Of a stretch of DNA of 46,450 nucleotides, positions 9,481-45,479 are shown piece by piece. This stretch comes from a virus. The stretch lies in IMG/VR virus record IMGVR_UViG_3300034104_006069, positions 1 to 46,450 of that record, one strand, 5' to 3'. The notes beneath the pieces are model-generated. The model worked only from the letters and a program-made list of their open reading frames with translations. It made no database searches and was not told the origin of the DNA. A program made the translations under genes and the position numbers. Positions within the stretch are counted from its first letter, which is position 1. Each line of letters begins with the position of its first letter.

Positions 9481-9490
9481 TTATAAATAT
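9481..9490 (-). promoter_or_regulatory. ATATTTATAA late-type motif
   Basis: Exact ATATTTATAA on the minus strand, 22 nt before the ATG of the small lipoprotein gene. Confidence 0.5.
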
Positions 9491-11057: not shown

Positions 11058-11930
11058 TTAATTGTTATGGTTGTTTAATACTTGTTCTACGTGTGCTTTA
11101 GCTACTTCCCAAGTTACAGGTCCGGTTTCGTCTGCATAAGCAACTGGATCTGGTTTACCTAATTTAATAAAGGCTTCTATCCTCTCCACGCTACTTGCAC
11201 TTTTATAGTCACTAAACCACACTGGAATTTGTTGCATTTCTTTAAGGCTAGCCAATACACTAATTTCTTTTTCTACTAGGTGCTGGATTGGTTTGTATGA
11301 AGTATTTGTTCTTGAATATACTTCGTTAAAGTCCAAACCTAATTTTTCACACAACATTTCTCCATCTTGTAGAATACCGAACTTGTCTGTGTGTAGATAA
11401 GGTGTAAAGTGTCCAACTCTTCCAACATCCCAATTTCCAACTCTAAATGCTTGATCATCTGCATCTCTCCATTCTTGTCTGCAGTCTGGATAAATTGCAT
11501 GATCGCCTGCGTGAATACCTAATGCAATGTCACAAGTAGATTCGGTTTGAGTAGCAGTAGACAAAGCAATTGCTTGTACAATTGAGCTAAAGATTTTGTT
11601 ACGGTTAGGAACAACTGTAGCTTTCATGTTGTCTTGCTCGTAATGGCCTTCTGGTACTTCAGCTCCACCAGTTACGAGAGCAGAGTTAAGTAGTGGAGTT
11701 AAACCATCAAGCCTAATAACTTGATATTTAACTTTTCCATAAGGTTCTCCAACTCTATATAATAGGGTATTGATATAACTAACTAACTCTTGAGCTCGTT
11801 CAAGCTCCACCCTATGTTTCTGCCCATAGTCAAAAGATATTGCAATTACATTATCATATTCAGATAATGCTCTCAATAATAATGTTGAGGAATCCATTCC
11901 TCCGCTTAGTGATACTACTACGCTTTTCAT
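11058..11930 (-). CDS. queC: 7-cyano-7-deazaguanine (preQ0) synthase-like, zinc-cysteine cluster lost
   Basis: 290 aa (typical 220-240). It makes preQ0 from CDG with ATP and ammonia. The N-terminal PP-loop is LSGGMDSS (8-15), then ISFDYGQKH, VVPNRN and IYPDCRQE, all QueC signatures. In normal QueC a C-terminal SCY...CGxCxxC provides four zinc-binding cysteines. Here the equivalent region reads TNTSYKP, then an insert of about 30 residues, then SASSVERIEAF and GKPDPVAY, so the flanking sequence is conserved but all four cysteines are replaced. No glutamine-amidotransferase domain is fused. It belongs with folE, queD, queE and dpdA in a DNA-modification pathway. Confidence 0.85.
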   Translation of the reverse strand: MKSVVVSLSGGMDSSTLLLRALSEYDNVIAISFDYGQKHRVELERAQELVSYINTLLYRVGEPYGKVKYQVIRLDGLTPLLNSALVTGGAEVPEGHYEQDNMKATVVPNRNKIFSSIVQAIALSTATQTESTCDIALGIHAGDHAIYPDCRQEWRDADDQAFRVGNWDVGRVGHFTPYLHTDKFGILQDGEMLCEKLGLDFNEVYSRTNTSYKPIQHLVEKEISVLASLKEMQQIPVWFSDYKSASSVERIEAFIKLGKPDPVAYADETGPVTWEVAKAHVEQVLNNHNN

Positions 11931-14712: not shown

Positions 14713-14722
14713 CTATAAATAT
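14713..14722 (-). promoter_or_regulatory. ATATTTATAG variant of the late-type motif
   Basis: One mismatch to ATATTTATAA, directly after the terminator at 14728-14750 and only 2 nt before the ATG at 14710. The spacing is tighter than at the other sites, so it may be chance. Confidence 0.3.
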
Positions 14723-14727
14723 AAAAA

Positions 14728-14750
14728 AAGGTTGGATAAAATCCAACCTT
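14728..14750 (-). terminator. Bidirectional-looking terminator after holin
   Basis: 10-bp inverted repeat AAGGTTGGAT / ATCCAACCTT with a 3-nt loop, flanked by A/T runs on both sides (T-run on the minus strand after the hairpin). Confidence 0.78.
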
Positions 14751-14756
14751 ATTTTT

Positions 14757-15176
14757 TTAGGATCGCTCCCCTTTATGTTTATCTATTTTATCCAGTATTT
14801 TGTTTAATTCATCTATCTTAACAAATCCTGCCATTGATGCATTTTTTAGAGCACTTATTAGCTGGAATATGATTAGAGGGGTAATTATAGTTTCACTTAA
14901 CCAAAATGTCCCACTAAAATTAGCTTCAATTCCTAGTATTACAGTTAAAAATATGATCCAAAATAGTAGATTTTTTAATATTTTAACTGCTTTGTAGGTT
15001 TTAAATCCCTCTCTTTTTACTCCTGCAATTACTCCAAAAAATCCATCAGCAAATATTAGAGCTGTAATAGCTAAATATTGTTCGGCGTTTTGCATTGTAA
15101 TTTCCATAAAATATGAACATACAAAAGCTGCAGTCATGCTAACAGAAGATAAAATTAAACTTAAGCTGGGTTTCAT
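14757..15176 (-). CDS. Phage holin (toxin-secretion/holin family 4-like)
   Basis: 139 aa with three to four membrane segments (residues about 5-22, 33-50, 68-90, 96-115). The GFFGVIAGVKREGFKTYKAVKILK segment after a membrane helix and a charged C-terminus (KILDKIDKHKGERS) match the phage holin family with a DxxxGxxxA helix then a basic loop. It lies 9 nt after the endolysin gene. It would permeabilise the inner membrane for the GH19 endolysin. Confidence 0.75.
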   Translation of the reverse strand: MKPSLSLILSSVSMTAAFVCSYFMEITMQNAEQYLAITALIFADGFFGVIAGVKREGFKTYKAVKILKNLLFWIIFLTVILGIEANFSGTFWLSETIITPLIIFQLISALKNASMAGFVKIDELNKILDKIDKHKGERS

Positions 15177-15185
15177 TCTAAAATA

Positions 15186-15800
15186 TTATTTTAGATAGCC
15201 GTAGTACTTAAGTGTTTTTTCTTCTCTATCAGCTAGTCCGTGAGTTCCACCGTTGATTCTCTTAGTAAGAGCTAGGATTGTGTCTTTGTTTACACCTTTA
15301 TCGCAGATGTCCCATAGCTTATTTCTGTCAAAGAAGAAAATTGCTGATTCGAAAGCAAATTCAGTTGCTACTAGATCAGGATTAGTCATGATTTCTGGTT
15401 TTTTCAAGTATTCAGAGAATACCTTATAGTTGTCTTTACCAGTCAATTGTAGAGCACCTCTACCTCTAAACTTAAATCCATCACCTGAAGCCTCATCACC
15501 ATTACCCATACGAGAAGCGTAAACTAAGTTAGCAATTTTTTCAGGCTTGCGTTCGTAAAGTAATGCTTTTTCTGTGGTTGGGAAATATTTTTTAAATATT
15601 CCGGTTAAACCAGCAGCACCGTAATTCAAATTCTCGGAAAATGCCTTAAAGTTTCCACTTTCGTGAGCGGTTTGGGCAAAAAAGTGAGCAGCTCTTTCAG
15701 GTGTCATTTTATAATAGGCCATAGCTGCTTTTAAAGTACCAGGTCCAAATGCACCATCTGCGGCAACTCCAATTTTAGCTTGCAATGATTTTAAGCTCAT
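15186..15800 (-). CDS. Endolysin, glycoside hydrolase family 19 (chitinase-like muramidase)
   Basis: 204 aa. The N-terminal 30 residues (SLQAKIGVAADGAFGPGTLK) look like a peptidoglycan-binding repeat. The catalytic domain has FFAQTAHESGNF, with the general-acid Glu at 47 in the GH19 HE motif, then FSENLNY and GFKFRGRGALQLTGKDNY, all GH19 landmarks. It cuts glycan strands of peptidoglycan. No signal peptide, so it depends on a holin. The start overlaps the small holin-like ORF by 4 nt (ATGA). Confidence 0.92.
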   Translation of the reverse strand: MSLKSLQAKIGVAADGAFGPGTLKAAMAYYKMTPERAAHFFAQTAHESGNFKAFSENLNYGAAGLTGIFKKYFPTTEKALLYERKPEKIANLVYASRMGNGDEASGDGFKFRGRGALQLTGKDNYKVFSEYLKKPEIMTNPDLVATEFAFESAIFFFDRNKLWDICDKGVNKDTILALTKRINGGTHGLADREEKTLKYYGYLK

Positions 15801-16066
15801 AGTTCTTCTTCTTTTTTGTCTTTACTAAAGATTTTAGTTACTCCATCAATACCAAAAGAACCCAATGTAATGATTACAAATGAGTTGAAGATGATATCGG
15901 TAATTTCTAACGGCATACCTAATATACCAGTTACAATGTCTGCGGCTGCAAATACTGCCATTACCGCAAATGATCCAAATCCTACGATGTTTTTTTCGTT
16001 GTAAGAGTTGTTGTCTTTAAAAATGTCCTTGAAAGCCATCCATTTATTTTTTAAATAGTTTAACAT
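15797..16066 (-). CDS. Small holin-like membrane protein
   Basis: 89 aa with two membrane helices (about 30-50 GFGSFAVMAVFAAADIVTGI and 55-75 IIFNSFVIITLGSFGIDGV) and a charged tail FSKDKKEEEL. Two-helix size, acidic/basic end and ATGA overlap with the endolysin gene support a holin or antiholin. Another holin candidate lies after the endolysin. Confidence 0.7.
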   Translation of the reverse strand: MLNYLKNKWMAFKDIFKDNNSYNEKNIVGFGSFAVMAVFAAADIVTGILGMPLEITDIIFNSFVIITLGSFGIDGVTKIFSKDKKEEEL

Positions 16067-16111: not shown

Positions 16112-17398
16112 TTAAAATTGAAATCTAGAACCAATAGTTACAGCATAGGTAGTTGGAAATTCATTAGATAAAGATGAAGTAGCCATTATACCTAAGTTAG
16201 CTACAAATCTTTGTGTTATAGCATAGTTAAAGTTATTTCCTGTTAACAATATATGTGAATGAGGCATATTCATTGTTTTGGTAGTAAAACTATATGTAAC
16301 TAGATTTGAGGCTAAAGCAGCTAATGGTGCTAAAGATAATCGAGTAAAGTTATAGGATTTAGTATAGAAAAATACAGTATTAAAAGACCCAGATAAGTCA
16401 CGTTGTAAAGGAGCTAGCTCTACAGACATTACATTACTTGCAAAGTTGAATCCAAATACAGATCCATCTCTACCTGGAAATACTTTACCGTGACCTATTG
16501 AAACCAGATATGTTGAATACATTTTAGCTGCACTTATAGCAGTAGAGCTAATCATGTCTATTTCTCCATTTATTACGTGGGTTTTTGAATAATTTCCTGC
16601 TACTAGAAACTGTTTCATGTTAGACCACACCATACTATTTACTCCATAGGATTTATCCCCGAGTAAAGAAGATTTACTCATACCAAAAGATAGAGCAGTA
16701 GCCCATTTACCATCTAAACCTTGCATTGATGCTACGTTTGCAACTACTACAGGTGGAGTAGTGGATTTTTTCTTTTCTTCTTTTTTTTCCTCTTTTTCTT
16801 CTTCTGAAGAACTTTCTGAAGATTCTTCACTGTCTGAGGATTCAGATTCACTGCTACTTTCTTCAGAGCTACTACTCTCTTCTGATCCACCTGATTTTTC
16901 TTCTGTGCTACCACCACCCTTTTCTGCTTCTCCCCCACTTTTTTCTTGAGAGGAAGAACTAGAAGAGCTACTTGAGCTAGAACTAGATGAAGATGAACTA
17001 CTTGAAGATGTTGTTCCACCACTTGAAGGTGGTGGGTTTGAAGGTGGGGGAGGTGGGGGTGTTGGGATATTGGTAGCTACTGAAGTAGCAGTAGAGGCTG
17101 CTTGTTGAGCAGTTTGTTGTGCTGCAGTTGCAGTAGCTTGATTAGTAGAACATGGACTTAAATTTCTCCACCAAGCATATGTTTCTTCTAGCCAAGCGCG
17201 TAATACACCGTTAGTAAAGTCATTTGAGGTAAATACACGTGATTTATTGTAAAATACTACTACAGTTTGCCCGTTTGATGGCACCGAGAATGTAAATGTT
17301 TGTCCCGTACACCTGTCGGTATATGTTTGGGTAATAATGGGGGATTGGGCCAAGGCCACATTCCCCCATAGTAATAATATAAAAAGAAAATATTTCAT
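16112..17398 (-). CDS. Predicted outer-membrane beta-barrel with Pro/Ser/Glu/Lys linker
   Basis: 428 aa from the ATG at 17398 (MKYFLFILLLWGNVALAQ signal peptide, residues 1-18); the TTG at 17413 is inside the CsgG gene. Order: a small N-terminal domain with two cysteines (TDRCTGQTF, LSPCST), an Ala/Thr/Gln helix, PPPPPP, a run of about 20 serines, an acidic Ser/Glu tract, a KEEKKEEKKK tract, then about 200 residues of alternating beta pattern ending in RFQF. A terminal Phe is typical of barrel proteins. Codons in the Ser tract are mixed, so slippage is unlikely. It is co-transcribed with CsgG. Possibly a surface or envelope protein; function unknown. Confidence 0.62.
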   Translation of the reverse strand: MKYFLFILLLWGNVALAQSPIITQTYTDRCTGQTFTFSVPSNGQTVVVFYNKSRVFTSNDFTNGVLRAWLEETYAWWRNLSPCSTNQATATAAQQTAQQAASTATSVATNIPTPPPPPPSNPPPSSGGTTSSSSSSSSSSSSSSSSSSSSQEKSGGEAEKGGGSTEEKSGGSEESSSSEESSSESESSDSEESSESSSEEEKEEKKEEKKKSTTPPVVVANVASMQGLDGKWATALSFGMSKSSLLGDKSYGVNSMVWSNMKQFLVAGNYSKTHVINGEIDMISSTAISAAKMYSTYLVSIGHGKVFPGRDGSVFGFNFASNVMSVELAPLQRDLSGSFNTVFFYTKSYNFTRLSLAPLAALASNLVTYSFTTKTMNMPHSHILLTGNNFNYAITQRFVANLGIMATSSLSNEFPTTYAVTIGSRFQF

Positions 17399-17402
17399 TA
17401 GG

Positions 17403-18122
17403 TTAGTGATCAAACACGCCCTTTTGTATCATTCTTTTTACAACTTTTGCTACTGCAGTTTCTAGAGCTTTTTTAGTAGAAGTACCAATAGAGGATTGGT
17501 TAAATGCTACTTCCTCTAAATTTTGATCACTTAATAAAGTTAATTCACGAGTAGTAGTAGCGGTACCTAATCCTGAACCAGTCATGTATAATCCAGTTTC
17601 TGCATCTACTAGCTTTAACTGTAAGCCTAATCTAGTTACTAGTGTATTTTTTACACCATCTTTTAAATTTATAGTTTCGTCTTCTGAAATAGAAAAATCA
17701 TATACTTCAACATAGCCTAAATATTTGGCTAGTACAATATTTCCTTTTACCTCTATTTTATTTGCAGATATACCTTTATCTGAGGCTTTCATTTGGGCAA
17801 TCATTCTATCTTTTATTTCATCCTTTGTTTCTACAAATTCAAATCTAAAAGTTTCGTCCATAAAGGCTACTACAATATTTGCTAGACCTAGTCCTACTCT
17901 ATAGTCACCAAGTTCTGGGTATTGGGCTAGTACTTCATCACTTATACCAATTGTTAATAAAGCAACAGGTACAGGTTTACCATTATATTCTGGAATAGAA
18001 TATATGGAAGCAGATTTTTCAAATTCTGCTTGATAGCTTTCAGTTGAGGTTTTTCCTATTACTTGAGCAAATAAAGTAGTAGATAGGAAAAATAGGGGGA
18101 TACTTAAAAGATATTTTACCAT
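17403..18122 (-). CDS. csgG: CsgG-like outer-membrane export channel
   Basis: 239 aa. Signal peptide MVKYLLSIPLFFLSTTLFAQ without a lipobox cysteine; E. coli CsgG is a 277-aa lipoprotein. Family landmarks: PVPVALLTIG, YRVGLGLANIVVAF, FVETKDEIKDRM and a second half VKNTLVTRLGLQLKLVDAETGLYMTGSGLG (quoted in part) matching the CsgG amyloid-secretion fold. Nonamer pores of this family export curli subunits in bacteria. CsgG-like genes are known from some marine phages. Here it sits among several other signal-peptide proteins. No CsgA-like amyloid repeat was seen, so the cargo is unknown. Confidence 0.8.
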   Translation of the reverse strand: MVKYLLSIPLFFLSTTLFAQVIGKTSTESYQAEFEKSASIYSIPEYNGKPVPVALLTIGISDEVLAQYPELGDYRVGLGLANIVVAFMDETFRFEFVETKDEIKDRMIAQMKASDKGISANKIEVKGNIVLAKYLGYVEVYDFSISEDETINLKDGVKNTLVTRLGLQLKLVDAETGLYMTGSGLGTATTTRELTLLSDQNLEEVAFNQSSIGTSTKKALETAVAKVVKRMIQKGVFDH

Positions 18123-18319
18123 GAATGTAGTCGTTTTGTTTTTCCATCAATTTTCCAACCAAAAACCTTACGTAAACTAAACCATAAGGTAATGCTTATA
18201 GCAAAACTGATAAGGTATCCAAATGGACTATAAATACCATTCATGGCAGTATATAATCCAATACCGGGAATAACAAATAGGATACAAACTAATAAAAGGG
18301 AACTTATTACATTTTTCAT
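18116..18319 (-). CDS. Small two-helix membrane protein
   Basis: 67 aa with two hydrophobic helices (SSLLLVCILFVIPGIGLYTA and PFGYLISFAISITLWFSL) and a basic tail (GWKIDGKTKRLHSW). It overlaps csgG by 7 nt, so translation is linked. Function unknown; an inner-membrane helper of the cluster is possible. Confidence 0.58.
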   Translation of the reverse strand: MKNVISSLLLVCILFVIPGIGLYTAMNGIYSPFGYLISFAISITLWFSLRKVFGWKIDGKTKRLHSW

Positions 18320-18322
18320 AGA

Positions 18323-18934
18323 TTATTTAAGTTTATGTTTTTCTGATTTACACAACATACCTGCTCGTTCAAACTCGTATTCAGGTCTTTGGTTTAAGAA
18401 AACATAACATCTCCATTGTTTGGAGTTTTCAAAGTAGATGTGCTTTTCCATATGGTCTGGAATAGCAGCACCTGTTGGTACTCTTTTTACAGATTTATCA
18501 AAATAAGTTTTAATTATTACAGTCAATGGTTCTTCATCGTCCCATTTTCTTTCTTGTTCCTCTAACATTCTCCAACTACCTCTGTTTAAGTATTGATTCT
18601 GCATTATAGAGTTTAGATATGAAAATGTTTGCTTGAGATTTTCTTCATTATCGGAAAACGTAGCAGCTGGAGCTCCATGTCCTTTATCGTATACATTTGT
18701 TTTATAATCTGCATCATCAGAGGTGTGTACATCTTTTTCTTTATAGAAATTCATGTGGCCTCTATTTACATTTGTAGGACGGTTTGTAGACCTGTATTTA
18801 ATCCAAAGAGGTTGCTCTAAAGTTTCAGAATACATTACTGTAAAGACAGGTGTCTCTACTAAAACAGAATCCCTCTTGGTTTGTGCCAAGAGAGATTGTA
18901 TTGTTAAAATAAAAAAAAGTAGTGTAAGTCTCAT
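18323..18934 (-). CDS. Secreted beta-beta-alpha-metal (DNA/RNA non-specific) endonuclease
   Basis: 203 aa with signal peptide MRLTLLFFILTIQSLLAQ (1-18). The catalytic motif is YDKGHGAPAATF, the DRGH motif of NUC-family nucleases with the general-base His at 86. It is followed by QTFSYLNSIMQNQYLNRGSW and LEEQER, which match the PQ...LN..W..LE pattern with the metal-binding Asn near 117. The enzyme probably cleaves DNA and RNA in the periplasm or outside the cell. It lies in the CsgG cluster. It may degrade incoming or host DNA, or clear DNA at lysis; this is not shown by the sequence. Confidence 0.78.
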   Translation of the reverse strand: MRLTLLFFILTIQSLLAQTKRDSVLVETPVFTVMYSETLEQPLWIKYRSTNRPTNVNRGHMNFYKEKDVHTSDDADYKTNVYDKGHGAPAATFSDNEENLKQTFSYLNSIMQNQYLNRGSWRMLEEQERKWDDEEPLTVIIKTYFDKSVKRVPTGAAIPDHMEKHIYFENSKQWRCYVFLNQRPEYEFERAGMLCKSEKHKLK

Positions 18935-19032
18935 TACATTTTCTTTTTATACAGTCCAGACTTTTGTTGAGCCTTAATAGTGGCTTTAGCCATTGCTTTT
19001 CTGTTTTTGTCTTTTGTTTCGCGGTTTGTCAT
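18934..19032 (-). CDS. Very small basic protein upstream of the secreted nuclease
   Basis: 32 aa, almost half lysine and arginine (MTNRETKDKNRKAMAKATIK). Its TAA overlaps the nuclease ATG (TAATG), and its start overlaps the preceding gene's stop by 4 nt, so the spacing argues for a real, translation-linking ORF. Confidence 0.42.
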   Translation of the reverse strand: MTNRETKDKNRKAMAKATIKAQQKSGLYKKKM

Positions 19033-19349
19033 TTTTCTTCTGTTGAACTTGTGTTTGATAAAGAAACTCCATCTTCTTCGTCCATTTTCTGGACTAACAT
19101 TTTATCTTTATCTGTATCCGAGAACCAGTAATCAATGATTTTACCATAAGAACCGATAAATGCACCTAATAACAATAATAGTAACTCTTTCCATTCCTGC
19201 CCTACAGCAGTGTCAACGTGAATAGAAATCATTATACCTAATGTTATAAACATAAAAGTAATCAAGACGATTAAGGTCATTAACCATCTTCTTTGCATCA
19301 TAGAGTTTAGTAATTGCTTAAACCCTGAAGGTTGTGTGTTGTTTTCCAT
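19029..19349 (-). CDS. Two-helix membrane protein
   Basis: 106 aa from the ATG at 19349, which overlaps the upstream stop by 1 nt (TAATG); the alternative TTG start is two codons earlier. Membrane helices at about residues 23-46 (LMTLIVLITFMFITLGIMIS) and 58-78, then an acidic, Ser-rich tail. No function recognised. Probably inner membrane, in the CsgG cluster. Confidence 0.58.
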   Translation of the reverse strand: MENNTQPSGFKQLLNSMMQRRWLMTLIVLITFMFITLGIMISIHVDTAVGQEWKELLLLLLGAFIGSYGKIIDYWFSDTDKDKMLVQKMDEEDGVSLSNTSSTEEK

Positions 19350-19684
19350 TACCAATCTAGCCCCTCTTCTTTACGTTTTTCTGTTTCAGTCTTTTTAGGT
19401 GGAGCTTTTTTCTCTACAGGTGCAGCTGCTTGTTCCTTAATAACCACAGTTTTAGTTTCTGCAGGTTTTTGTTCTGGAATGTTAATTACTACGTTTTGTT
19501 GTTGTTGATTGTTCTGTTGAGTACCTTGTACTTGCTCAGTCTCATCTTCTTCAATACCTACTATAGATTTGATTTCATCTATAAAAATGGTTCCAAGAGT
19601 AGTTAAAATAACTCCTGCTCCTGTAATAATTTGGTTTTTTAATTGGCTAAAGAAACCACCACTTTGTTCTTGTTCTTCACTCAT
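19349..19684 (-). CDS. Single-helix membrane protein with Gln/Pro/Lys-rich tail
   Basis: 111 aa. One membrane helix near residues 16-36 (IITGAGVILTTLGTIFIDEI), then a low-complexity periplasmic- or cytoplasmic-type tail with QQNNQQQQN, PEQKPAETK and KKAPPKKTETEKRK. The Pro/Lys tail recalls TonB-like or cell-wall-spanning linkers, but no TonB domain is present. In the CsgG cluster. Confidence 0.55.
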   Translation of the reverse strand: MSEEQEQSGGFFSQLKNQIITGAGVILTTLGTIFIDEIKSIVGIEEDETEQVQGTQQNNQQQQNVVINIPEQKPAETKTVVIKEQAAAPVEKKAPPKKTETEKRKEEGLDW

Positions 19685-19694
19685 AGCTGTTTAG

Positions 19695-20063
19695 TTAATA
19701 TAAATTTACAATAGTTTCTGCTAACCTAACATTTTTGGAGTTATATAGAGCAATAGTATAAGGTTCTTTAGGAAGTGCCCCTGTATACAATTTTAGTATA
19801 TTATCTCCAGCCTGTACTTTTACTTCTTCTTTGGATACAATTCTGCCGCTTATGTGATGTATCTTCACGGTATAAATACCAGAAGTTTCTGTTTTTACAT
19901 TCATTGCTACCTCTTCAGTAGCAAATACTGATTCTAGTTTTATACCTACTTGCTCTTTTATTTCTAAATTATTAGCAGGTAATTCAGGCTCATATATGTC
20001 TTCTTGAAAACATCCACCTAATAATAGAATTGAGGCAATACTTAAATATTTTAATGATTTCAT
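19695..20063 (-). CDS. Secreted lipoprotein with a T9SS-CTD-like fold
   Basis: 122 aa. Signal peptide MKSLKYLSIASILLLGGCFQ with lipobox LGGC (Cys 18). The mature part has GIYTVKIHHISGRIVSKEEV, then GDNILKLYTGALPKEPYTIALY, a pattern like the immunoglobulin-like C-terminal sorting domain of Bacteroidota type IX secretion substrates, although the protein is lipid-anchored. Co-transcribed with the cohesin-like protein just upstream. May dock surface proteins; inferred. Confidence 0.6.
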   Translation of the reverse strand: MKSLKYLSIASILLLGGCFQEDIYEPELPANNLEIKEQVGIKLESVFATEEVAMNVKTETSGIYTVKIHHISGRIVSKEEVKVQAGDNILKLYTGALPKEPYTIALYNSKNVRLAETIVNLY

Positions 20064-20064
20064 T

Positions 20065-21633
20065 TTATTGTATGTTTAGAATTATTTTATCACCATTTAC
20101 AGCAACCGCTTCGGCAAATTCAATAAATACTAAACCTGTTGTATTAGATATTGTAGATTTTGTTTTAAATATAAGTTTATAGGGCATACCTGGTTTTACT
20201 TTAGATGTACCTAAATTATCAATAGAGCCAAATACTACAGCATTATCTCTTGGAGTAGAGAAGTTGGTTATATCCCTTCCAGCATCAAATACTACTTCTT
20301 CTAATTCTAATTTGTTAACATCGTATCGGATTTTGTATTGGGCTCCAGCTAAATCGGTTTCTTCTAGCTTTATTTCTACTACTACTTTACTATTAACTAA
20401 TTTAGTTGTAATAGCAGTATTGGCTTGTCTATTAGTTGTTTCTATTCGGTTTGTTCTATTAGCTATGCTAGTAACTGTTTTAGGTGTAGAGTGAGAGAAA
20501 TCTAAATCACCTGCCCATGCATACCCAAAATCAAATCTATGGGATGGGCCTGTAATGTTTATAAGCCCGTTAAATACCCCTTGGTTAAATGTATCAATTT
20601 TTCCAGAATAAAATCTTATATTAGAAGAAGTGGAAGTAGGTATAGTAGAGGTTTGGGATACATTTATACCCATTACATAAGCAAACAGATTATAAGAATC
20701 ACTTAAATCAAATGTATTATCACCTAATGTTACATTACCTACTTTATATTCTATAGGTGTAGTAAAATAGTTTTGATCTAAGTTTAGACCTTTATCTGAT
20801 ATTTGTAAAAATGCTTTGTAAGCATCTGCTACTGTTACAATATCATTCATAAAAGATTGTTGAGTAGCAGGAGTAATTAAAGCATAGTAATTTTTTCCGG
20901 TTTGTAATGTTGTTATTAGTGCTTGACCTGCCCCATCTAAAGGAGCAGAAGTTACAATAGAATTAAAATTAGGGGTGTTATTAGCATCTACATTTACTAT
21001 TTGAACATTATGTTTAGCAATATCATATCCTGCAGGAAATGCTACTCTAAATGTTACCGCCGAAGAAGCACCAGATACGTTGTTTAAACTTAACTGCAAT
21101 ACTTGAGATCCAACTGGAGTTTTTTGCTGATTAGCTGAGTTTCGAGCATCAGCCATATCTAGTTTGTGTATATTATTAAAAGTTAATTGGTCTTTTATAA
21201 CAAATTTTTGTCTTACCCATTCTCCAGTAGGAAAATCTGTTGGGGTTTGCACATTAAGTTGGACAATATTCCAGTTTTGATCTAGTACATACTGGTATCC
21301 TCCTTCATTTAATTGTCGGTTTAATTCTCCTACACCTATGTTAGGGTTTTGATTAAATCTATATCCTACCCATTGATAAAAGTAGGTTTGTCTTGTAGAA
21401 GCATTAACAAAGACAGTTGAGTTAGGTACTAGTTGTAAATGTTGATTAGAATATTGTAATCTTAACCAAAAATACCTAAAATCAGGTTGACCTGTAAGGT
21501 TTTGTAATGTGTATCGAATTGTAATAGTATCTCCTACTTGATAAGGTGGAGCTTCAACTACTTCTTGGTTAACAATAATTTGACCAAAAGAAAGTGTTGG
21601 TAATAGTAATAAAAGAATTAATAGTTTTTTCAT
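20065..21633 (-). CDS. Secreted cohesin-like domain protein
   Basis: 522 aa. Signal peptide MKKLLILLLLLPTLSFGQ (1-18). Two beta-rich segments look cohesin-like: residues 25-170 (VGDTITIRYTLQNLTG...) and 390-522 (KVVVEIKLEETDLAGAQYKI, RYDVNKLELEEVVFD, VKPGMPYKLIFKTK), where the second follows the cohesin pattern of strands then YDxxxLEL. A Thr/Ser-rich central part may be another domain. Single-nucleotide gap to the lipoprotein gene and 4-nt overlap upstream. Likely exported to the periplasm or surface; binding partner unknown. Confidence 0.6.
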   Translation of the reverse strand: MKKLLILLLLLPTLSFGQIIVNQEVVEAPPYQVGDTITIRYTLQNLTGQPDFRYFWLRLQYSNQHLQLVPNSTVFVNASTRQTYFYQWVGYRFNQNPNIGVGELNRQLNEGGYQYVLDQNWNIVQLNVQTPTDFPTGEWVRQKFVIKDQLTFNNIHKLDMADARNSANQQKTPVGSQVLQLSLNNVSGASSAVTFRVAFPAGYDIAKHNVQIVNVDANNTPNFNSIVTSAPLDGAGQALITTLQTGKNYYALITPATQQSFMNDIVTVADAYKAFLQISDKGLNLDQNYFTTPIEYKVGNVTLGDNTFDLSDSYNLFAYVMGINVSQTSTIPTSTSSNIRFYSGKIDTFNQGVFNGLINITGPSHRFDFGYAWAGDLDFSHSTPKTVTSIANRTNRIETTNRQANTAITTKLVNSKVVVEIKLEETDLAGAQYKIRYDVNKLELEEVVFDAGRDITNFSTPRDNAVVFGSIDNLGTSKVKPGMPYKLIFKTKSTISNTTGLVFIEFAEAVAVNGDKIILNIQ

Positions 21634-22103
21634 AGAAGTAAGTTATCAATAAGTTGCTCACAAACCTTTTTAAGTGATGTTGAAACTCCTGTTTGTGAAA
21701 ACTGACCTCCCTGATCTATAATTAAAGTTGCAGTAGAGATGTCTTTGGCTTGACCTTTTGCCTCAGTTGTTTTAATTATTTTACCATTTTCAATTAAATA
21801 AGCTTTAGCTATAACTACAGTTATGCTTAAATTTTTACCAAATGCACCTAATTGTACATTATTTTTTAATATATCAAAATATACTATTTCTACTTTAATG
21901 CTACGAGGTGATGCATCATCTAGATCCCATCCTTTATCTTGGATTGTTTCTTCTAGTATGTTTTTAACCCCAAAAGCTAAATCTCGGTTATTAGCTAGAG
22001 GACCGAGTATAATTTTATTTTCTACTCCTTCAATTCGTATGGTTCCTTGACCATAAAGGTTCATGCTTAATAACAAAGCAAAAAACAAATATAATAATCT
22101 CAT
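21630..22103 (-). CDS. Secreted hypothetical protein heading the export cluster
   Basis: 157 aa. Signal peptide MRLLYLFFALLLSMNLYGQ. The mature domain (IRIEGVENKIILGPLANNRD; KNILEETIQDKGWDLDDASP; LSITVVIAKAYLIENGKIIK) alternates strands and helices as in LptE/YajG/CsgG-accessory-type envelope proteins, but no family can be named. It is the first gene of the cluster after the terminator and late-type motif, and overlaps the next gene by 4 nt. Confidence 0.58.
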   Translation of the reverse strand: MRLLYLFFALLLSMNLYGQGTIRIEGVENKIILGPLANNRDLAFGVKNILEETIQDKGWDLDDASPRSIKVEIVYFDILKNNVQLGAFGKNLSITVVIAKAYLIENGKIIKTTEAKGQAKDISTATLIIDQGGQFSQTGVSTSLKKVCEQLIDNLLL

Positions 22104-22165: not shown

Positions 22166-22175
22166 TTATAAATAT
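22166..22175 (-). promoter_or_regulatory. ATATTTATAA late-type motif for the export cluster
   Basis: Exact motif on the minus strand immediately after the terminator at 22182-22202; 62 nt before the ATG at 22103. Confidence 0.5.
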
Positions 22176-22181
22176 AAAAAA

Positions 22182-22202
22182 GAGGGGCGCTTTGCGCCCC
22201 TC
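22182..22202 (-). terminator. Strong rho-independent terminator after nrdA
   Basis: 9-bp GC-rich hairpin GAGGGGCGC / GCGCCCCTC with a 3-nt loop, followed on the minus strand by TTTTTT. Confidence 0.88.
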
Positions 22203-22228
22203 CAAAAAATGTAATATAAAAAATATAA

Positions 22229-45469: not shown

Positions 45470-45479
45470 TTATAAATAT
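45470..45479 (-). promoter_or_regulatory. ATATTTATAA late-type motif
   Basis: Exact motif, 27 nt before the sheath ATG at 45442. Confidence 0.55.

Follow-up and report, generated by a model that had tools for sequence, protein, structure and literature searches.

The window analysed here, the whole 46,450-base virus record IMGVR_UViG_3300034104_006069, carries on its minus strand a cluster of genes for exported and membrane proteins, organised around a protein with the CsgG fold. The host group of this virus is Flavobacterium-like bacteria. Judged from sequence and gene order, the best reading of the cluster is that of a late surface display cassette, acting by receptor masking or adhesion, and not that of a lysis device. 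In its fuller form, an accessory and exchangeable late cassette that would remodel the exterior of Bacteroidota cells during infection, this proposal seems about equally balanced between right and wrong. The original prediction, made from the bare sequence, had described an envelope/export cluster, and this description is borne out. The present analysis adds to it the likeness of the barrel to FapF, a dockerin module, a lipoprotein combining a sorting-like domain with a surface-export signal, terminators that enclose the lysis genes in the same unit, and an exchange of the cassette that is all-or-none between close relatives.

Gene order and transcription unit

The stretch from 22103 down to 16112 had been credited with ten genes on one strand. 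The single strand is correct and the count is nine; a tenth gene, encoding a protein with two transmembrane segments (15797-16066, minus strand), falls just outside and is retained also in many phages without the cassette. The overlaps between genes were recovered at 21630-21633, 19349-19355, 18116-18122 and 17403-17413, as were the six proteins with an N-terminal signal peptide (YajG-like, cohesin, lipoprotein, nuclease, CsgG-like and barrel) and the three membrane proteins, all small.

Searches of viral contigs gave at least 130 relatives of the CsgG-like gene, and a further one, with 51% identity, is present in the cultured Flavobacterium phage immuto. The core order cohesin-(lipoprotein)-small transmembrane protein-CsgG-barrel was found, when searched for in other phages, in immuto and in about 80 viral contigs, among which the CsgG-like identity falls as low as about 55%, and a gene order that recurs so often places the arrangement far above chance. 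Two types of order can be distinguished. With Y for YajG-like, C for cohesin, L for lipoprotein, s for the single-transmembrane protein, G for CsgG-like, B for barrel, h for a protein with two transmembrane segments, N for nuclease and X for lectin, the window type reads Y-C-L-s-G-B followed by the lysis genes, and the type of immuto and large phages reads C-s-G-(h)-B-(N)-Y-X, where an endolysin mostly lies no more than a few kilobases away. The latter type was also observed on contigs L062 and L073, of 306-308 kb, and the cluster therefore occurs in very large phages too. In immuto (NC_055915), the homologous cluster spans gp012-gp019, where the existing annotation names just a nuclease, a lectin and a cohesin besides hypotheticals; it differs from the window in its order type, in the type IX secretion system (T9SS) sorting domain on its cohesin protein, in the presence of the lectin and in having no sorting-domain lipoprotein. 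Among Flavobacteriaceae genomes, only one of 199 gave a match to the CsgG-like protein, on a small contig, and the other 198 had none; the family is therefore, as far as sampled, phage-borne. Ordinary Pfam CsgG is present in 16 of 60 Flavobacteriaceae genomes, and no host curli were found in two metagenome-assembled genomes carrying the phage gene.

An intrinsic terminator 3' of nrdA (22181-22203, minus strand; GGAGGGGCGC-AAA-GCGCCCCTCT and then a T run) sets the upstream limit of the transcription unit. Directly after it comes the late-type promoter motif ATATTTATAA (22166-22175, minus strand), about 64 nt 5' of the first gene, and the same terminator and motif precede the cluster, with slight variations, in the close relatives L003, L005 and L022. 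A second intrinsic terminator (14728-14750, minus strand), just 3' of the holin gene, ends the unit. Because strong terminators and the late motif bound them, the envelope genes, the protein with two transmembrane segments, the endolysin and the holin appear to constitute one unit, running from 22175 down to 14728. The lysis genes claimed to adjoin the cluster were found next door as a GH19-type endolysin (15186-15800, minus strand; PF00182, E 2e-6) and a holin-like protein encoded by the final gene of the unit (14757-15176, minus strand; Phage_holin_4_1-like, PF05105, E 4e-4, slightly under the cut-off). The late-type motif and late expression proposed for the cluster are likewise supported by a ATATTTATAA copy at the head of a unit shared with these genes. 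Nine copies of ATATTTATAA occur in the window, every one on the coding strand, a number reached by none of 100 shuffles, and the copy at 45470-45479 stands 5' of the tail sheath gene; the motif is probably the late promoter of this phage group. Its copies start, on the minus strand, at 9481, 22166, 32397, 38874, 41065, 43105, 43681, 45470 and 46278; it often lies ahead of late genes and is similar, not identical, to the T4 late motif TATAAATA. A further TATTTATA motif is located at 14714-14721, after the terminator at 14750-14728.

The CsgG-like protein, the barrel and the proposed cargo

The centre of the conserved core is a secreted protein (17403-18122, minus strand) with a predicted structure of the CsgG/PelC/TraT fold. 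Resemblance to CsgG in structure had been set as a test by the original prediction, and a fold match was indeed obtained: the best PDB match of the model in Foldseek is E. coli CsgG 4uv2 (E 2.6e-8, probability 1.0), followed by PelC (E 8e-7), HpaA, FlgT and TraT (E 6e-5). The top match in a viral fold library is an annotated phage CsgG, which agrees with the fold and adds no function. The name CsgG-like thus holds for the fold and fails for the curli family. Pfam CsgG (PF03783) matches neither the window protein nor any of 36 family members, and the curli CsgG of Flavobacteriaceae gives no alignment (hhalign 0.6%), in contrast to non-curli CsgG-family proteins (hhalign 86%). A single long hairpin is predicted (134-173) and not the two of a curli-type channel, the region 198-207, where the second was not seen, being of low confidence. 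No match was found between the family profile and PDB sequences. The N-terminal region of the window protein contains no Cys, so it lacks the lipoprotein N-terminus of curli CsgG; a lipobox-like Cys occurs in some relatives (e.g. LFSCKTAQAQ). Judging from its model, the protein is a member of the CsgG superfamily, not a demonstrated curli pore, and perhaps forms a ring.

These results bear directly on the possibility of a genuine curli-like system (type VIII) with an overlooked amyloid subunit. Such a system would fit the CsgG fold and the FapF-like barrel, which both come from amyloid export systems, and the CsgA/B proteins of pelagiphages were themselves initially missed and found later with dedicated models (PMC9599517). 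Against it, the CsgG-like protein lies outside the curli CsgG family, family scans recognised neither CsgE nor CsgF among the cluster genes, and none of the nine genes gave a curlin match, in line with the earlier claim that an amyloid subunit gene is absent. Curli membership of the cluster was ruled out on the basis of Pfam, hhalign and the missing partner genes, and we consider a hidden curli system extremely improbable.

The first gene of the cluster encodes a YajG-like (Lipoprotein_16-like) protein with a signal peptide (21630-22103, minus strand; PF03923, E 5.7e-5, 23.3 bits for a cut-off of 25), a remote and shorter paralogue of the CsgG-like protein (hhalign to the CsgG-like family 96%). 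The sole PDB match of its profile, ribosomal protein S1, was judged to be due to chance.

The barrel-like protein (16112-17413, minus strand; start perhaps at the ATG at 17398) was confirmed by AlphaFold as a confident outer-membrane barrel of 12 strands (local pLDDT about 88), in front of which lie an N-terminal domain containing a conserved pair of Cys, a helix and a disordered linker (about 110-211). The helix 199-210, a candidate plug, is predicted at low confidence. The top structural match in Foldseek is FapF (E 1.2e-6), and NanC and autotransporters score almost as well. In FapF, the exporter of the Fap system, a periplasmic domain at the N-terminus and a disordered linker likewise precede the 12-strand barrel, which is plugged (PMC5557850). 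The two proteins agree in architecture, homology not being implied: they have no detectable sequence relation and their N-terminal domains differ. In addition, no Fap family matched among the cluster genes, and the cluster contains no FapC-type amyloid.

The probable export cargo, to judge from its modules, is the secreted cohesin/dockerin protein (20065-21633, minus strand), which had been named, as a cohesin-like protein, among the possible cargo or surface parts. Its own Cohesin match (E 3e-4) is below the cut-off. The family profile, compared with all PDB chains, matches scaffoldin cohesins at the C-terminus (423-474, E 9e-4; 427-508, E 0.011) and, weakly, the dockerin Doc8 in the centre (264-317, E 0.34), and the earlier label can thus be retained. 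The cohesin match of immuto gp015 is above the cut-off (E 5.9e-9), and the dockerin-like segments of relatives match Dockerin_1 in 10 of 12 cases (best 5e-5) and have canonical F-hand loops. In immuto-type phages, the cohesin proteins end in a T9SS type A sorting domain (TIGR04183/PF18962, E about 1e-12), and the dockerin-like module is also found on a second protein, a C-type lectin.

The adjacent lipoprotein (19695-20063, minus strand) has a sorting-domain-like domain as its only domain. The sorting-domain models (PF18962/TIGR04183) match it weakly (E 0.019 for PF18962 in one search, 0.064 in another), and the sorting domains of relatives align with it at 88-90% in hhalign. Surface-exposed lipoproteins of Bacteroidota carry a lipoprotein export signal (LES), polar and then acidic residues right after the lipobox Cys (PMC5080379). 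This pattern (C-x-polar-acid) is found in 25 of 30 members of the lipoprotein family, compared with a background of 3%, and reads C-F-Q-E-D in the window. The sorting domain is fused to the cohesin protein in relatives, and a similar domain is located on the neighbouring lipoprotein in the window type, an apparent fusion/fission pattern which suggests that the two proteins cooperate at the cell surface.

On these bases, the surface display cassette could operate as follows. The cohesin/dockerin protein would be carried by Sec into the periplasm, cross the outer membrane and be held at the surface. In immuto-type phages, its export would fall to the type IX system of the host, by way of the fused sorting domain; in the window, the lipoprotein would anchor it or be anchored along with it. 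The CsgG/PelC-fold protein would assemble into an oligomeric outer-membrane ring and act jointly with the barrel, as a conduit or a platform for assembly; the single-transmembrane protein (19349-19684, minus strand) would provide a link to the inner membrane. The displayed layer would most likely mask or alter surface receptors late in infection, to the exclusion of competing phages or to keep released progeny off debris, the exact benefit being a guess, and the secreted nuclease could destroy incoming DNA. A more specific version, in which ring and barrel make up a dedicated non-curli phage machine exporting a self-associating cohesin-dockerin coat before lysis, is possible and must be regarded as doubtful.

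Several points weigh against surface display. The model of the CsgG-like protein has a moderate pLDDT (71) and TM-scores of about 0.45, and the lead of FapF over other 12-strand barrels is marginal. The window cohesin protein itself lacks a sorting domain (TIGR04183/PF18962), and its route across the outer membrane is therefore only proposed; the sorting-domain likeness of the lipoprotein is remote. Superinfection exclusion usually acts early, and late timing is odd for it. The dockerin loop of the window protein is degenerate, which also counts against a role in adhesion or sibling capture, where displayed cohesin and dockerin modules, with or without the lectin, would stick infected cells or debris to cells or particles and thereby help progeny to find hosts. 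Cohesin and dockerin in one polypeptide could in principle assemble head to tail, C-type lectin and LamG modules accompany the dockerin-like module in the second gene-order type, and a similar proposal was made for pelagimyophage curli (PMC7029224); no clumping was seen, however, for the phage Melnitz (PMC9004378). Adhesion as the main purpose appears fairly unlikely.

Cassette exchange at the nrdA/lysis site

The contigs of tail-sheath relatives being too fragmentary to judge, presence and absence were scored in 39 helicase relatives with enough downstream sequence. The cluster occupies the site in 11 of them, and 28 have no core gene there. Twenty contigs without it at the site were checked over their length: the CsgG-like gene is nowhere in 19, including contigs of 138.7, 120.0 and 119.1 kb, and the remaining one has the cluster elsewhere; as contigs may be incomplete, only the long ones make a strong case for absence. 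At least six gains or losses are needed on the helicase tree, four of them forced by well-supported branches. The cassette is thus exchanged in an all-or-none manner among close relatives, and Bacteroidota phages appear to swap envelope cassettes at the site between ribonucleotide reductase and the lysis genes.

Other cassettes observed at this site include a TonB-dependent receptor, a T9SS-sorted protein of 966 amino acids, glycosyltransferases, and a set combining a barrel-like protein, a lipoprotein, a single-transmembrane protein and thioredoxin; alternative envelope cassettes lie at L203:8674-11214, L207:14489-17389, L197:14349-17924 and L194:14223-16731. A single-transmembrane protein of 94 amino acids with a coiled-coil-like tail (L194:16026-16310; homologs in L195, L222, L241, L259 and L260) is encoded repeatedly in these alternative cassettes and looks like an i-spanin. 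In L187, the position of the envelope cassette, right behind nrdA (offset 35), is taken by a GIY-YIG-like endonuclease gene, and in a few relatives nrdA is followed almost at once by the endolysin.

This exchange helps to weigh a lysis module, in which ring, barrel and the inner-membrane-anchored Trp protein would jointly form a spanin-like device to breach or destabilise the outer membrane at lysis. The unit common to envelope genes, endolysin and holin would suit such a role, as would the single-transmembrane family, with its invariant C-terminal Trp on a long, disordered and presumably periplasmic tail; no spanin was recognised among the genes scanned, and a lysis role for phage CsgGF was proposed by the authors of the Melnitz study (PMC9004378). 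However, the 28 relatives without the cluster keep the neighbouring lysis or late genes, and the cluster is therefore probably not required for lysis; the cohesin, dockerin, lectin and surface-export lipoprotein would moreover be left unexplained. A lysis module is unlikely.

The secreted nuclease (18323-18934, minus strand) is firmly identified as a non-specific DNA/RNA endonuclease of the NUC1 type (PF01223 Endonuclease_NS, E 1.1e-19), with intact active-site motifs DKGH and N..N..W..LE, in agreement with the original prediction; it gave a single weak PADLOC match. It might point to nutrient uptake, with the barrel importing macromolecules or oligosaccharides and the nuclease freeing nucleotides for the phage. 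The likeness of the barrel to the oligosaccharide porins NanC and KdgM, the adjoining ribonucleotide reductase and the TonB receptor at the same site in one relative are consistent with this idea. Expression together with the lysis genes would nevertheless leave little time for uptake, a nuclease relative is present in only 19 of 81 loci, and the cohesin, the sorting domain and the ring would have no explanation, making a nutritional role very improbable.

Known systems and accompanying genes

CsgG genes in phages, which the original prediction had mentioned, are indeed on record (PMC7029224, PMC9599517, PMC9004378), and these curli (T8SS, type VIII secretion system) clusters of pelagiphages and Melnitz are the closest known systems. 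Like the window, they involve aquatic phages and a cluster for outer-membrane export that has a CsgG fold and is foreign to the host clade. The window differs in family, partners and cargo: pelagiphages and Melnitz have a curli-family CsgG with CsgF and, in later work, CsgA/B, whereas the window has a separate CsgG-like family accompanied by a cohesin/dockerin protein, a sorting-domain lipoprotein and a 12-strand barrel. PelC, which works with the PelB barrel, and TraT, a surface-exclusion protein, form rings of the same superfamily and resemble the window protein in remote fold only. T9SS type A sorting domains are already known in a phage, in variable regions of a cryophage (PMC7468147); their carriers there are an endoglucanase, a glycoside hydrolase and a PA14 protein, in contrast to the cohesin/dockerin protein seen here, and in the window the sorting-like domain stands alone on a lipoprotein. 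The combination had been thought undescribed, and no description of it was found in the literature searched, nor any work joining a cohesin domain, a dockerin and a bacteriophage genome. Phage alteration of host surfaces is already known, and a late ring, barrel and lipoprotein with a cohesin/dockerin cargo would, if true, constitute a new way of achieving it. The cultured pair of immuto and Flavobacterium sp. LMO8 carries a homologous cluster, and the purpose of CsgG-type exporters in aquatic phages is therefore directly testable.

The two other small membrane proteins of the cluster are one with two hydrophobic segments and no significant family match (19029-19355, minus strand) and one found only among the nearest relatives (18116-18319, minus strand). 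Elsewhere in the window, at 11058-11930, lies a homologue of an immuto gene annotated as QueC (7-deazaguanine synthesis), which may hint at modified DNA or tRNA.

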